Shown: piece after piece, positions 29,904-51,842 of the stretch
Numbering within the stretch: position 1 is the stretch's first letter
Layout: every line of letters begins with the position of its first letter
NCBI RefSeq assembly: GCF_900009135.1
Contig: NZ_LT797701.1
Location: 828,630-892,629, forward strand
Origin: Planktothrix sp. PCC 11201
GTDB lineage: Bacteria > Cyanobacteriota > Cyanobacteriia > Cyanobacteriales > Microcoleaceae
DNA: 64,000 nucleotides
Direction: 5' to 3'
Notes under the pieces: generated by a model
What the model saw: the letters and a program-made list of their open reading frames with translations, nothing else
Told to the model about the DNA's origin: nothing
Databases searched by the model: none
Position numbers and translations under genes: made by a program

Positions 29904-30060
29904 ACTATTAATAAATAATCTCAATTGTTAATCTTATTATTCTGTCATATTCATTGTGAAGCGGGCTGTTTTCTAAGTAAACTCTTACCTGAATTGTTTC
30001 CGACTTAATCAGGGATTAAAATTCTTTAATCTGGATCACTTTTCCCTGAATTCTAAATAG

Positions 30061-30108
30061 AAAAAACACCTGGGAGTCTGGCCGAGTTTCGACCCCAAGT
30101 GCTTTTTC
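30061..30108 (-). terminator. secA terminator
   Basis: On the minus strand GCACTTGGG pairs through G-C, A-U and G-U pairs with CCCAGGTGT, flanked by an A-run before and six T after (30061-30066). It lies about 110 nt past the secA stop. Confidence 0.7.
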
Positions 30109-30217
30109 TTTATTAATCTCACTCCTCACACTCCTCAAATATACACGATTATTTGGGGATGTCAAGGAAAAACTGAAAAATAAAATTTCCAGCCAGGATC
30201 AAAAACACTTCAAATCC

Positions 30218-47400: not shown

Positions 47401-48220
47401 GTTGTTCGCGGGAATAACCGACAATCTCACAAAATTTTTGATTCACTTTTAACCATTGTTTGGAGAGAGAAACATGACCAATTCCAACAGCAGCTTGTTC
47501 AAAGGTATCTCTGAATAGACGTTCTTGGGCATGGGTTTGGGCAATTTGTAAAGCCAACTTTTGGTCTAATTTTTTCATTAAATACAGGGCTAAAATCGAT
47601 CCTAAAATCCCCATCCCTGTCACCGCAAACATGGACAACCATGTCAGTTTAATTTGTTCATTTTGAATTTTTCGGCGTTGTTCGATAAGTTGTTCTTCTT
47701 CTTGAATAAATTGACTAATTTCTTGACGGTTTATCTGCATTTGTTTGCTATTTTGTAGCAGAACTTCGGATAAATTTGTAGAAGGTTTAGGGGATTGAAT
47801 TGTATTTAAGTAAGTTTTTAAAAGTTGGTCAGATTGATTTAGGGTGGTTTCGAGGGTTGTCAGTTTCTGAATCCGGTTAGGATGATTAATGGCTAAATGT
47901 TTAACTTGATTGAGGGAAATATATAAATTTTTAGTGGCTTTTTCGTAGGTATTTAAATGATTGGTTTGACGGGTTAACGCATAATCTTTCACCGCAATTT
48001 CTGCGGTCAAAATCTGTGTCATTAATTCCTGAGCCTGATTGCGAATCAGATAGCTATCGCGGGCTTGGTTTCTAGCTTCTTCGGCTTGGTATTGAAAAAT
48101 CGCTGCGATCGCCAGACCAATGATTAAACTAGATATGGGAATTCCAGTAATCAGACTGGCTCGATGACGTTGAATAAACCTTAGCCACTCTGGTAAGGAA
48201 TTTGTGAAATCCGTATTCAT
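44411..48220 (-). CDS. Large hybrid histidine kinase with PAS, two receivers and Hpt
   Basis: 1269 residues. Membrane helix (about 18-40), helical sensor region, second helix (about 195-215), three PAS domains (about 230-600), HisKA with phosphoacceptor in FLANMSHEIRTPMNGILG, HATPase (GTGLGLVISKQLV), a first receiver (acceptor aspartate in AIFDQPLL, sequence degenerate), a second receiver with VFMDCQMPQLDGYA, and a C-terminal Hpt with YAHRFKGSSANVG. It thus holds a complete phosphorelay. The ATG is preceded by a GGGGGAA ribosome-binding site that lies just outside the right-end hairpin of the IscB element, inserted only 23 bp upstream. Confidence 0.95.
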   Translation of the reverse strand: MNTDFTNSLPEWLRFIQRHRASLITGIPISSLIIGLAIAAIFQYQAEEARNQARDSYLIRNQAQELMTQILTAEIAVKDYALTRQTNHLNTYEKATKNLYISLNQVKHLAINHPNRIQKLTTLETTLNQSDQLLKTYLNTIQSPKPSTNLSEVLLQNSKQMQINRQEISQFIQEEEQLIEQRRKIQNEQIKLTWLSMFAVTGMGILGSILALYLMKKLDQKLALQIAQTHAQERLFRDTFEQAAVGIGHVSLSKQWLKVNQKFCEIVGYSREQLLRYKLSDFTHPDDKNKDLFLFQKLINQEIPSYSIEKRYIHKNGAIVWINLTLSLGSWLDEFPYCPREEKRYGIAVIEDITTRKQLELERDRFFELSVDILIIVDRDLRFKRVSPSVEKILGFTPEQLQKTSFISLVHPDNLSSVEQSISEENTQEALIFSFEARLRCQDNSYKWIAWNCVRIAQTGLMYGTGRNITERKQVEDAIERESQQLRQIITHAPVAMAMFNREMCYIAYSDKWFSDFGLVRLKQQLLSLQQSDRKVFPQMPYSWKKAFKQGLKGKIISNSEDVFYDINGKKSIIRWAIHPWYEPNQQIGGVVIAADRIDELVEAREAALENARIKSQFLANMSHEIRTPMNGILGMAGLLLKTELTPKQQDFVRGIRVSAEHLLAIINDILDFSKLEAIEVKLETLDFDLEHCLETVVDLVATQAEEKRLELAIIVDTNVPRQLRGDPGRLRQILLNLLGNGIKFTSAGEVVVRVNQLSSTSHTTRLRFEISDTGIGISSEDKDKLFQCFSQLDASTTRQYGGTGLGLVISKQLVHLMSGDIGVESTVGKGSTFWFTAQFLLGEAKQNRVAPASLRNLKLLVADNNITIRQSIRYLTQSWGIQLDEAIDGESALTLLRQAATRGEPYPIAIFDQPLLTINSANLADIINSDRHLSQTKLVLMTRTNQRDLIEKMLDHGIDSYLTKPIRASRLFDAILKAMTIQNASNIQQQSSVKISNDQNILTPSHPPLRILLAEDHLINQEVILNQLNLLGYEADLANNGLEALELLNQKKYDIVFMDCQMPQLDGYATTQQIRQKETDHHIIIIALTAHALTTDREKCLAVGMDDYLSKPVEAEELEAVLMKWTYIIDQKNQNTNLSVDSELAPPKTLGDNPNNSPLNIERIQKISGGKKEFQQKLLKVYIERSEQDFIEIQAALTAKNFTILQQYAHRFKGSSANVGATIISQLAEQLENAIQQENITLCSEQVAKIQHNLGTLKVYIEQYFHQI

Positions 48221-48242
48221 CTTTCTTCCCCCTTGGAGACTC

Positions 48243-49804
48243 CCACTGAACCTGTAATCAGGTCAGTGGTGAGAGGAAAAGGGGGTAGAGATTTATGTTG
48301 CATACAAATAACCATCTTTTCTGTGAATAAGTGAACAATATTTGTGACTAATACCTTGTACAAGTGTTTCCTTCAAGGAAATATTGAAACTCCCCGTTGT
48401 CCGAACAGCAACTCGCCCAATATAAGTTCCAATTTTCTTGCCCGAGGTAACAATTGCTCTAACAATATCGCCTGTTTGAAAACCTTTAACAAATTTCAGC
48501 CTGGGAACATATCGAGATGGAAACCCAAACTTGTCAGTCCGGCACATTTGACGAGTGCCATGTCCTGTTGCTTTAATTAACAAAGGTTTACGGGTTAGAA
48601 CTTCCAAAGATTCAACCTGCCCAACACAAGCCGCATCTAACCAGTGGGTTTTAGGAAGATTTAAGCGGGTTCGATTAAACTTAGTTAAACCACCACTGCC
48701 AGTGGAAACAGGTAAACCAGTTTCTTTGAGTCGATTAAACAATGTCCATCGCGTTGAATTAACTGCTGTAGCATCTTGGAGTGGACGTTTAGCTTGAGAA
48801 AGAATCCGCTTCAAAACATCAGGTTTTTTAGCTAGAAATTGCTCAATATTTTTAGTCCCTTTCTTGATATTACACTTTTCACAAGCTAAACATAAATTGC
48901 TGACTCGGTTGGAACCTCCTTTGGCTTTAGGATGAATATGTTCTACCTGAAGGCAAACATTTTCAATCCCACAATAAGCACATTTTCTCTCCCATTTATT
49001 CAGTAGATATTCCCGAACTTCATACCCAGCTAATTCCCCTTGTTGATATTCAACGCCTGAGATTTCAGGATTTTCAAGTTGTTGTAAGTCAAATCTTACT
49101 AACTCCTGATCAATACCTTTAATTGGTGCAAACTTCATCAGTTTCTTAACCCAAGTCCAGGTCGTTTCTACTCGATGTTGAAGACTAGGAGCTAACCATC
49201 CTTTATGTCGGGTGCGATTTAAAAACCTGGCCTGACGATAACGAGTATGACGATTCTTCCGAGAGCGACGTAGTGAGCGACGGGATTCCAAACTAGCTTT
49301 TATCCCTTGACCCCGATGGGTTAATTCCGCACCCCAGAGCAATTTATTACCTTGTACCAAGGCGATACCAGTAGTTTTAGAACCTGGATCTAATTTGATT
49401 TGAATAGGTTCAGGATTAGGATTTTCAACAGTTTTAGTAATAATAATTGTGAAAGGATACTTCCTGTAAACCAATGCTCTACCTTGATTTAAAAGTTTCC
49501 TGGCTACCGATGGGTGGCAAGGACTTAAAGGTTGTTTGCTGGCATCAATAGCTAGAACATAATTTGACATTTCTATCACTCCTATTGCTAGGGTAAAGTT
49601 AGCTTCGCCAAGGTTTTAAGAGCTTTTTAATCCAGTAACACTTCCTTAACCCGATAAAGATGTTTAATCACTAGAGACAGAGCCGGGGACTAGCTTCGCA
49701 TCCACAGGGTGTCATGACTCAAAAAACGTAGTCAGTTAAGACTTAGGCTGGTAAACTATCGACTTCTTTAAAAGCCTCCACTGTACTTGTACTCAAGTCA
49801 GTGG
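48243..49804 (-). mobile_element. IscB element bounded by twin 27-nt hairpins
   Basis: Two near-identical hairpins mark the ends. The right one (48243-48269) reads CCACTGACCTGATTACAGGT then TCAGTGG on the minus strand; the left one (49778-49804) reads CCACTGACTTGAGTACAAGT then ACAGTGG. They agree at 23 of 27 positions. Between them are only the omegaRNA leader and iscB. No tnpA is present, so mobility would need a transposase in trans. Exact tips are not defined. Confidence 0.8.
48293..49570 (-). CDS. iscB: IscB RNA-guided nuclease
   Basis: 425 residues from the ATG of MSNYVLAIDA, which has AGGAG 8 nt upstream; a GTG three codons earlier is the alternative. N-terminal PLMP-type segment (PLSPCHPSVARKLL, residues 14-27); RuvC-I IKLDPGSKTTGIAL (D61); arginine-rich bridge helix (about 92-120); RuvC-II GIDQELVRFDLQ (E156); HNH with C197, C200, E210-H211 and C230, C233; RuvC-III HWLDAACVG (H309, D312). 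All catalytic residues are present. IscB, the ancestor of Cas9, uses an omegaRNA encoded just upstream to cut DNA next to a target-adjacent motif. That RNA is at 49580-49825; a second copy lies at 50290. Confidence 0.96.
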   Translation of the reverse strand: MSNYVLAIDASKQPLSPCHPSVARKLLNQGRALVYRKYPFTIIITKTVENPNPEPIQIKLDPGSKTTGIALVQGNKLLWGAELTHRGQGIKASLESRRSLRRSRKNRHTRYRQARFLNRTRHKGWLAPSLQHRVETTWTWVKKLMKFAPIKGIDQELVRFDLQQLENPEISGVEYQQGELAGYEVREYLLNKWERKCAYCGIENVCLQVEHIHPKAKGGSNRVSNLCLACEKCNIKKGTKNIEQFLAKKPDVLKRILSQAKRPLQDATAVNSTRWTLFNRLKETGLPVSTGSGGLTKFNRTRLNLPKTHWLDAACVGQVESLEVLTRKPLLIKATGHGTRQMCRTDKFGFPSRYVPRLKFVKGFQTGDIVRAIVTSGKKIGTYIGRVAVRTTGSFNISLKETLVQGISHKYCSLIHRKDGYLYAT

Positions 49805-49825
49805 GGGTTGTTTACATCTCCACCT
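49580..49825 (-). ncRNA. IscB omegaRNA (cis copy)
   Basis: The leader of iscB. On the minus strand it runs from a candidate guide (ending near 49805) through the left-end hairpin (49778-49804), an AGTCTTAACTGACT stem region, a TGACT/AGTCA stem, a long variable hairpin, and a conserved 3' block (AAGCTCTTAAAACCTTGGCG onward) that ends at the iscB ribosome-binding site. Position and structure fit known omegaRNAs. The second copy at 50290 supports it: identical blocks and pair-preserving changes. The 5' end is not known exactly. Confidence 0.8.
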
Positions 49826-49828
49826 TAG

Positions 49829-50191
49829 AGCAACCCGTGAACCCAAAACACCGATATCTGAAGGTTTTAAGCCATCAATCCACCCCCAACAACCTCTACA
49901 AAAACACCGATCTGAAGCGAGATCGGTGCATTGGGGGTGTTATGGGTGTTATCTACCCCGCACCATAACAGATCGGGATTCCGCTTTGAGTGTACCCTTG
50001 TGCTAGTTCTCAAATTGTCACAAGAATCAAACTCTCTAACATTTTGATTAATCCGGTTAATATGCAATAAAAATTCTAACCAATAATTAAAAAATTTGCC
50101 GAATGTTGCCATAATAATAGATAAAATCGGCTCGGTATTGCCAGCATTTGATGAGAACATAAATTCATCTAGCGGTTAACTCCTGAATGGG
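49829..50191. other. Region between the two omegaRNA copies
   Basis: Apart from the terminator at 49900 no feature is certain. A minus-strand frame (49867-50160, 97 codons) runs through the terminator hairpin and has no recognisable motif, so it is not called. The segment ACACCGAT-TCTGAA occurs twice (about 49848 and 49904). This is probably host DNA flanking two insertions. Confidence 0.5.
49900..49928 (-). terminator. Rho-independent terminator, leftward
   Basis: CACCGATCT (49905-49913) and AGATCGGTG (49920-49928) pair perfectly around 6 nt; five T follow on the minus strand (49900-49904). It would stop any leftward transcript before the cis omegaRNA, so that RNA must start downstream of 49900 or read through. 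Confidence 0.65.
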
Positions 50192-50219
50192 TTGTCAAGC
50201 TGAATTAAAGTAGTATAAT
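50192..50219 (+). promoter_or_regulatory. Predicted sigma70 promoter for the orphan omegaRNA
   Basis: TTGTCA (50192-50197) and a perfect TATAAT (50214-50219) are spaced by 16 bp on the plus strand. Transcription would start near 50226 and run into the orphan omegaRNA about 80 nt later. Confidence 0.6.
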
Positions 50220-50289
50220 CATAGTATATTTTGAAAAAAATTGATCCGCAATAGTCCAAGTCCTGCTTTTCAGGTAATTGGGTTATCTA

Positions 50290-50546
50290 TTGTTTAATTC
50301 TGGTTTAACCCCGTCAGCACCCCGCACTGAAGTGACGGGGCTTCGTGCCTCTAACTTCAGTTAGTTGACCAGCCTAAGTCTTAACTGACTACGTTTTTTG
50401 AGTCAAGACACCCTGTTGGATGCGAAGCTAGTTCCTGGCTCTGTCGTTAGTAGTTAAACAGTTTTACGAGGGGTAAGACAGTGCTACTAGCCTAACAAGC
50501 TCTTAAAACCTTGGCGAAGCTAACTTTACCCTAGAAATAGGAGTTA
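50290..50546 (+). ncRNA. Orphan IscB omegaRNA (no adjacent iscB)
   Basis: A second copy of the iscB leader, on the opposite strand. Two blocks of 38 nt are identical to the cis copy: one starts ACCAGCCTAAGTCTTAACTG, the other AAGCTCTTAAAACCTTGGCG. The 5' hairpin (50309-50340, stem CCCCGTCA/TGACGGGG) replaces the CCACTG/CAGTGG stem of the cis copy, keeping pairing with a different sequence. The inner stem GTTAGTAGT/GCTACTAGC corresponds to TCTAGTGAT/GTTACTGGA there. The 5' flank, where the guide would be, is unrelated (ATTGTTTAATTCTGGTTTA). No iscB follows; the glycosyltransferase gene does. Confidence 0.8.
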
Positions 50547-50607
50547 GGAGGGCAACCATACCCTCCTCCCTGAAAGGGGAAATATAAAGCCGTCCTATCA
50601 AGGACGG
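50546..50607 (+). repeat. Hairpins at the end of the orphan omegaRNA element
   Basis: AGGAGGG (50546-50552) pairs with CCCTCCT (50561-50567), and CCGTCCT (50590-50596) with AGGACGG (50601-50607), 4-nt loop. They occupy the place where iscB would begin and may be the right end of a non-autonomous IscB-derived element. The start codon of the next gene lies 20 bp on. Confidence 0.65.
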
Positions 50608-50627
50608 GGTTTCTACCCATTTTTCTG

Positions 50628-51842
50628 ATGAATATTGTAATCATCTCCTCTACGTTTCCCTATCCACCCAGTCGAGGCGGAACGGAGATTAGAACCTTTA
50701 ACTTGCTCAAATATCTTCATTCTCGCCATCATGTTACTCTAATCACCCAAAGACATTCGGGGGTTAGTGATCAGGATGTAGAGGAATTGCGTCAGTGGGT
50801 GAGTCAACTGGTGGTTTTTCCCCTCCCTCCCGAACCTCCGACTGGGGCCGTTGCTAAGGTGGGTCGCTTTATTAATTCCCTCGTCCAAAGTACCCCTCCC
50901 AATGTCCTTTATCGATATTCCCAAGAAATGCAAACTTGGATCGATCAAGCCGTTGAACAGGGCAAAGTTGATGTAATTACTTGCGAACATAGTGTTAATG
51001 AAATTTATATTCGACCGTCCTATTTAAAGCAGGTTCATACCGTTGTTAATATTCATAGTTCTGTAGTAGGTTGGACTCGTAATCATTTAGAAATGGGGGC
51101 TTCTCCCCATCCCCAACGCGATCAGATTTATTTACAATTACTCTTAGAACGCTATGAAAAACGTTATGCGGCTAAATTTCATGATTTAGTCGTTACCACC
51201 GCAGATGATGAAAAACAATTCCGTCAATTTCAACCCCAGGGAGAAATTCATGTAGTTGCGAATGGGGTGGATTTAGAATTATTTCCCATGCGATCTTTTG
51301 ATCCGAATAATCATAACTTAGTATTTGTGGGGGCAATGGACGCCTCCCATAATATCGACGCCGCCCGATTTTTCACCCTAGAGGTCTTACCCATCCTGCA
51401 AAATTCCTATCCCGATACCACCTTTACCATCATCGGAGCGCGACCCGTACCGGAGGTTCTACAATTAGCGAACTATCCAGGTGTGATCGTCACCGGAGGA
51501 GTTCCCCAGGTCGTCGATTATTTACATCAGGGGACGGTCTGTGTCACCCCCCTGCGCAGTGGCTACGGAATCAAAAATAAAACCCTCGAAGCCATGGCCG
51601 CCGGGGTGCCGGTGGTGGCCAGCGATCGCGGTTTAGAAGGATTAGCCGTTGATGGGCCGAATGACCCCCATCGGGCTCTGCGGGCAAATACCGTGGCAGA
51701 ATATGTAGAAACCATTAGCCGACTGTTTGAACATCCCCATCTGAGGGAACAATTGTCGCAAAATGGGAGATTATTAATTGAAACTGAATATACTTGGGAA
51801 CGAGCCGGTGAGCTTTATGAACAAGTTTTGCTGCGTCGTTAG
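50628..51842 (+). CDS. GT4-family glycosyltransferase
   Basis: 404 residues. N-terminal GTB start MNIVIISSTFPYPPSRGGTE with the glycine-rich donor-side loop, the central VVANGVDLELFP motif, and the C-terminal donor region GIKNKTLEAMAAGVPVVAS with catalytic E and EGLAV. It probably adds a sugar to a polysaccharide, glycolipid or exported polymer; the acceptor is unknown. It begins 20 bp after the end of the orphan omegaRNA element, which may have brought or displaced its promoter. Followed 25 bp later by a membrane protein gene. Confidence 0.93.
   Translation: MNIVIISSTFPYPPSRGGTEIRTFNLLKYLHSRHHVTLITQRHSGVSDQDVEELRQWVSQLVVFPLPPEPPTGAVAKVGRFINSLVQSTPPNVLYRYSQEMQTWIDQAVEQGKVDVITCEHSVNEIYIRPSYLKQVHTVVNIHSSVVGWTRNHLEMGASPHPQRDQIYLQLLLERYEKRYAAKFHDLVVTTADDEKQFRQFQPQGEIHVVANGVDLELFPMRSFDPNNHNLVFVGAMDASHNIDAARFFTLEVLPILQNSYPDTTFTIIGARPVPEVLQLANYPGVIVTGGVPQVVDYLHQGTVCVTPLRSGYGIKNKTLEAMAAGVPVVASDRGLEGLAVDGPNDPHRALRANTVAEYVETISRLFEHPHLREQLSQNGRLLIETEYTWERAGELYEQVLLRR

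Follow-up and report, generated by a model that had tools for sequence, protein, structure and literature searches.

A 315-nt mobile element that carries a full-length omegaRNA scaffold and no nuclease gene lies flush with the start codon of a glycosyltransferase gene, close to an intact iscB locus, in a 64,000-nt stretch of the genome of Planktothrix sp. PCC 11201 (here called the window). The boundaries of the element, its element-free sites and right junction, the families of copies to which it belongs, the ends that it shares with other elements, and the bias of such elements toward start codons could all be demonstrated. With moderate confidence, we consider it to be a non-autonomous OMEGA transposon, comprising an omegaRNA and two transposon ends, that uses IscB in trans. 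Transcription and processing of the RNA, its loading into IscB, cutting, and homing are steps that we infer. The features of the locus, in window positions, are as follows.

50192..50219, + strand: promoter-like site of the host gene (TTGTCA-16-TATAAT), from the consensus match and a -10 kept in relatives.
50297..50312, + strand: predicted 16-nt guide, located in the host DNA to the left of the element, from the differences in left DNA between sites.
50313..50627, + strand: type A guide-only (non-autonomous) OMEGA transposon, 315 nt, from element-free flanks and the limits of similarity between copies.
50313..50529, + strand: HEARO/omegaRNA scaffold, full length (RF02033, 152.3 bits).
50320..50340, + strand: left-end hairpin (CCCCG...CGGGG), read from the sequence; the left end is common to GTCAGCACCCC-type copies.
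50590..50607, + strand: right-end hairpin of IS200/IS605 type, with a 7-pair stem, from its similarity to the end of TnpB loci.
50628..50631, + strand: ATGA, the insertion target, predicted target-adjacent motif, and glycosyltransferase start codon, from the right junction, the mapped ends, and the start-codon test.
50628..51842, + strand: host glycosyltransferase gene (Pfam Glyco_trans_1_4, 84 bits).

The Rfam model for HEARO/omegaRNA (RF02033) matched positions 50313-50529(+) over its whole length (model 1-211 of 211), with a score of 152.3 bits against a gathering score of 83 and an E value of 4.4e-32. No HNH/RuvC open reading frame adjoins this scaffold; the next frame, starting at 50628, encodes the glycosyltransferase. 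The orphan copy is an omegaRNA, but it is incomplete as an IscB element. An earlier note on the same DNA had described, next to an intact IscB locus, an omegaRNA that lacks iscB, and the RF02033 matches at both loci, together with the glycosyltransferase frame next to the orphan, bear this out. Both of the 38-nt blocks of exact identity that it had pointed to were recovered (50368-50405 equals 49715-49752(-), and 50497-50534 equals 49588-49625(-)). Its placement of the copy from 50290 onward was only partly right, because similarity between copies begins at 50313 and positions 50290-50312 are flank that holds the guide region. The unit also does not end at 50607 but spans 50313-50627, with 50590-50607 as its 3' terminal hairpin. 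Elsewhere in the window, a Cyano-1 RNA (RF01701) was found at 30058-30135 (-), scoring 47.2 bits (gathering score, 41).

The neighboring locus has the following features.

48221..49815, - strand: iscB element, 1595 nt, bounded by an ATGA (48217-48220) whose ATG opens a histidine-kinase-like gene.
48293..49579, - strand: intact iscB, 428 aa (NCBIfam guided_IscB, 465 bits against a cutoff of 175; Pfam RRXRR and HNH).
49593..49815, - strand: omegaRNA of the intact iscB (RF02033, 149.4 bits, E value 2.2e-31, model 1-211).

The product of this iscB matches solved IscBs with E values down to 3.2e-41. The orphan had been read as a copy of the neighbor's leader, and the core is indeed common to both (88% over element positions 50-217), but the terminal hairpins are unlike. 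Among the 12 iscB-linked omegaRNA cores compared, that of the neighbor is closest to type A (0.880 for the window copy and 0.884 for the type A mean), followed by cores at 0.837 and 0.783. The neighboring element was typed as "other," with hairpins that differ from those of type A at both ends. Derivation of the orphan from this IscB element by deletion can be dismissed, because the two differ in their terminal hairpins and right ends.

In order to find copies in the genus, positions 49840-50900 were used as the search query; many copies begin at 50313 and end near 50631. Both flanks were found without the element in four genomes (G003, G004, G005, and G006), and the right flank alone aligned in G007 and G009. 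In the element-free genomes the right junction lies exactly before ATGAATATT. The last ∼15 nt of the left flank are diverged there, so that the left junction was placed from the remaining copies, and the empty-site target of the window copy matches the relatives poorly. The proposal that this is a non-autonomous mobile element was upheld by the element-free flanks in relatives, the boundaries between copies, and the mapped ends; defined ends with subterminal hairpins and element-free sites are what is found in non-autonomous IS200/IS605 elements. The same 315-nt form recurs at other sites in other species (G002 and G004) with 95 to 97% identity. This recurrence argues against reading the copy as a leftover from the decay, in place, of a formerly complete iscB element; so do the full-length scaffold and the presence of both ends, and no iscB remnant was noticed when the sequence between scaffold and right end was read. 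Degraded copies do occur in the genus, but the leftover reading was already disfavored, and we regard it as very improbable.

Ten genomes of the genus contained 115 HEARO matches (0 to 41 each), 89 of them above the Rfam cutoff. Five matches at contig edges were left out, and one of the remaining 110 had no mappable end. Ends were mapped by comparing copies from different sites in pairs, and 76 of the 109 fell at NTGA (66 ATGA, 9 GTGA, and 1 CTGA), for which the estimated chance in a six-base window is ∼5%. The other 33 lie away from NTGA; in many of these copies a contig end or an internal deletion truncates the element, and some have a different end point. The ATGA or GTGA at 75 of the 109 mapped ends is the target-adjacent motif predicted from the junctions for the resident IscB. 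For the IsrB relative DtIsrB, the measured motif is NTGA (PMC9581776).

Left flanks differ between insertion sites, orthologous ones excepted, which places the predicted guide 5' of the scaffold. The IscB guide has a length of ∼16 to 17 nt and lies at the omegaRNA 5' end (PMC9640706). Among the loci fetched, the 16-nt guide of an element other than the window copy recurs exactly, followed by ATGA, at an element-free locus of another genome for two sites, and two further sites showed guide matches of 15/16 and 14/16 at an element-free locus. Because left flank and ATGA recur at element-free loci, joining guide and ATGA re-creates the predicted target. A search of the genome of the window copy for the guide followed by RTGA, allowing up to 3 mismatches, returned the locus itself (without the motif) and one two-mismatch site, compared with one hit for a backward control. 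The two-mismatch site (C18:19090) was rejected as a second guide target and attributed to chance, since its ATG opens a frame of only 4 codons and the control was equal. The earlier suggestion that the orphan could reprogram the neighboring IscB in trans is thus retained in part: the closeness of the neighbor's omegaRNA core is consistent with such service, but the target that the guide matches is the empty site of the element itself, so that IscB would be reprogrammed only to that insertion site.

After the CTGA case was dropped and 6 same-site duplicates were removed from the 75 ATGA or GTGA cases, 69 distinct sites remained. A site was counted as start-like if, with the flanks joined, its ATG began a frame of 60 codons or more that was preceded by an in-frame stop. 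By this measure 39 of the 60 distinct ATGA sites have an ATG that opens a gene, compared with 158 of 783 noncoding ATGA (20%) in 464 kb of the same genomes (P = 6e-14); against a lenient, upper-bound baseline of 311/936 the difference was still significant (P = 5e-7). In the same frame test, none of the 60 ATGA sites showed an open frame interrupted by the element. The genes downstream of the 69 sites were sense at 48, antisense at 5, both at 2, and none at 14, whereas 1229 baseline ATGA gave 457 sense, 214 antisense, 38 both, and 520 none (48:5 versus 457:214; P = 1e-4).

This placement, with the sense bias of downstream genes and a Shine-Dalgarno-like run before the ATG in one subfamily (18/23), is also what might be seen if the element were a leader co-opted by the host, serving the downstream gene either as a cis-acting 5' untranslated region or as a guide through which bound IscB regulates it. 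However, the same gene is expressed in relatives from element-free sites, and sites are mostly not shared between species, which speaks against a conserved regulatory role. Thus, co-option seems unlikely.

The promoter-like site TTGTCA-16-TATAAT that had been noticed upstream was located at 50192-50219, with 11 of 12 consensus matches; the upstream region holds 5 promoter-like sites, compared with 1.3 (standard deviation, 1.1) in shuffles. In the four element-free relatives that aligned, the -10 is TATAAT in two and TATACT in two, and for the -35 only TTGTAA was found, in two of the four. Because the -10 recurs in all four, we assign the promoter-like site to the host gene. Any RNA that bears the guide must begin beyond the element, since the guide is itself outside it. 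The idea of a guide-RNA gene in its own right thus gave way to another: guide and omegaRNA more likely form the 5' leader of the glycosyltransferase mRNA, judging from the position of this putative promoter. A start codon is a place with an assured upstream promoter, which in our view might account for the start-codon bias.

The right end of the element is 89 to 90% identical over 52 to 53 nt to an end at three TnpB loci of the same genome (L047, L048, and L049). The TnpB proteins of L047 and L048 score above the NF040570 cutoff, and that of L049 is a 224-aa piece that scores below it. The flank at L047 is TCAT, the reverse complement of ATGA. At all three loci, the 5' end of the TnpB locus corresponds, in reverse complement, to the right end of the omegaRNA element, and nuclease gene and guide are oppositely oriented between the matching ends. 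Matching ends were also detected at 3 of the 33 Y1_Tnp loci in the genus (L193, L196, and L202), where TnpA is of the IS200/IS605 type (NF033573) and the flanks are not RTGA, and at none of the 6 Y1_Tnp loci in the genome of the window copy. At L196, the TnpA (NF033573) lies beside an 82%-identical end, and at L193 the matching end is ∼0.8 kb from an intact tnpA. A 54-nt left-end fragment at L046 (100% identity) was considered as another copy and rejected as a remnant; it abuts a tnpB (NF040570), and the rest of the element is absent.

The element thus has ends in common with TnpA- and TnpB-bearing elements, and these shared ends support IS200/IS605 as its probable transposase class. We infer that TnpA, acting in trans, may be the mobilizer. 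IscB is a nuclease and not a transposase, and the suggestion that the intact IscB keeps the orphan mobile was abandoned in favor of an IS200/IS605-type TnpA, to which the matching ends point.

Guide-only copies are common well beyond the window. The genus has 29 RRXRR matches, of which 9 are of IscB length, 7 are of 308 to 372 aa, and 13 are partial, and an RRXRR match lies directly downstream of 15 of the 115 HEARO matches. Across 61 genomes of the family there were at least 651 HEARO matches compared with 265 RRXRR matches, with HEARO in the majority in 44. Typing of the 76 mapped copies by right end gave 23 guide-only and no long copies for type A, 16 and 6 for type B, 7 and 1 for type C, and 18 and 5 for "other." One copy classed as "other" in this typing (G004:C19:84560) resembles type A by eye. 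The right end of the neighboring iscB element (48221-48240, -), like that of its subfamily, terminates in a Shine-Dalgarno-like run (for example, AAGGGGG or GGAGG) ∼7 nt before the ATG of the ATGA. Such a run precedes the ATG in the 18 of 23 "other" copies mentioned above but in 0 of 53 copies of types A, B, and C, and an "other"-type transposon end may provide a ribosome-binding site to the gene downstream of an insertion.

The family search also detected 15 matches in other genera that are unbroken to the type A right end. Twenty loci were fetched from one second genus; ATGA marks the end of 15 and ATGG that of one (L333), and 4 fall short of a type A end. These counts are not independent evidence for the motif, because the query held ATGA and the loci were chosen mostly for reaching the end. 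At 15 loci these are guide-only relatives of type A with 73 to 84% identity; the ATG opens at least 60 codons at 9 of the 15 ATGA-ending loci, and the left-end motif is present in 1 of the 20.

Some sites are occupied differently in different genomes. One site before a hexapeptide-repeat-like gene holds a 369-aa RRXRR element in G000 (L006, on contig C28) and a guide-only HEARO in G001 and G002 (L064/L161). At another (L112, L134, and L145), two omegaRNA subfamilies occupy a single site in different species with identical junctions. Same-site turnover, counted at 2 sites (the second in G004/G007 versus G008), was rejected as evidence of RNA-guided re-insertion because 1.1 chance coincidences are expected (probability of two or more, 0.31), an expectation that takes ∼10,000 noncoding ATGA per genome with the start-codon bias and covers HEARO matches only.

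It is possible, though we think it rather doubtful, that such elements are passive miniatures, i.e., deletion derivatives whose ends suffice for TnpA and whose omegaRNA is unused cargo. Elements persist in G001, which has 3 HEARO matches and no RRXRR protein, and in the draft assembly of G004, which has 41 HEARO matches and no full-length RRXRR protein. Internally deleted copies exist as well, for example, among matches below 83 bits. However, passive cargo is harder to reconcile with the 89 of 115 genus matches that still reach the Rfam cutoff or with a type A scaffold kept in two genera without iscB. The pairs of the scaffold also covary: over 54 distinct guide-only copies, two-sided changes were found in 31 of 64 predicted pairs, and covariation cells numbered 355, compared with a mean of 136 and a maximum of 154 in 200 shuffles (which ignore relatedness) and with 21 to 67 in slid structures. 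This covariation may have been inherited from iscB-bearing ancestors and predate the loss of iscB. Slower scaffold evolution was not found within the 19 type A copies compared (core, 0.051 to 0.066; spacer, 0.070; right hairpin, 0.071). Because variation in the core is about equal to that in the spacer, as it might be in passive cargo, selection on the RNA after iscB loss is not demonstrated for type A. These caveats on covariation, the even variation, and the persistence in G001 and G004 are the reasons why our confidence in the use of IscB in trans is only moderate and why passive cargo retains some weight.

If the element does use IscB in trans, an IS200/IS605-type TnpA, also in trans, would have put it exactly 5' of the ATGA that is the glycosyltransferase start codon. 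Transcription from the promoter of the host gene would pass guide, scaffold, and right end before it reaches the glycosyltransferase gene, and IscB from the neighboring locus would load the guide-omegaRNA. The loaded IscB would cut the element-free allele, in which the guide target is followed by ATGA, and would spare the occupied locus because GTCA follows the guide there. Repair after the cut would copy the element back.

More tentatively, these elements might form a long-lived guide-RNA-only lineage that parasitizes two proteins encoded elsewhere, using TnpA for movement and IscB for retention, and acts through start codons as a minimal, nuclease-free gene drive. Targeting of ATGA would bring the element to start codons, where a host promoter would transcribe the guide and the start codon would double as target-adjacent motif. 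If this is true, one IscB serves many unlinked, site-specific guides per cell, much like one Cas9 with many crRNAs. Such an arrangement would be intermediate between a nuclease that has a single guide and a guide array. The excess of omegaRNAs over iscB genes would be accounted for as well, and the placement at start codons would have a reason. A span of 2.5 kb takes in the element, the partner IscB, and the predicted target, so that use of the guide in trans is directly testable.

Like other IscB/OMEGA elements (RF02033, NF040563), the element has a complete scaffold, a 5' guide from the left flank, and a predicted motif on the 3' side; it differs from them in having no nuclease gene and in belonging to a subfamily whose ends have no mapped iscB-bearing member. 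In a Limnospira study, HEARO RNAs were treated as intron remnants left after mobility (PMC8400943). Among open-licence papers, a cross-genus guide-only lineage, start-codon placement, and guide supply by a host promoter were not found.

Standalone omegaRNAs and the ATGA/GTGA junctions of HEARO are already in print. Standalone omegaRNAs without an adjacent iscB were reportedly described by Altae-Tran et al. in 2021. There, as here, omegaRNA loci exceed iscB in an IscB-bearing genome, but the present case is a bounded transposon with element-free sites and shared insertion sequence ends, in a guide-only lineage found in two genera and placed at start codons. HEARO integration at ATGA/GTGA is said to have been noted by Weinberg et al. 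in 2009; the junction is the same, to which the start-codon bias and the proposed use of host promoters are added here. Non-autonomous IS200/IS605 derivatives of the PATE/MITE type keep both ends, have lost their genes, and presumably move by TnpA in trans; unlike these, the window element retains a whole guide-RNA scaffold.

The closest parallel to the proposed homing is the model of TnpB-mediated retention, in which cutting of the element-free allele is proposed to keep the transposon (PMC8612924, PMC11870625). The cut proposed here would likewise fall on the element-free allele, but the nuclease would act in trans and would be IscB rather than TnpB.
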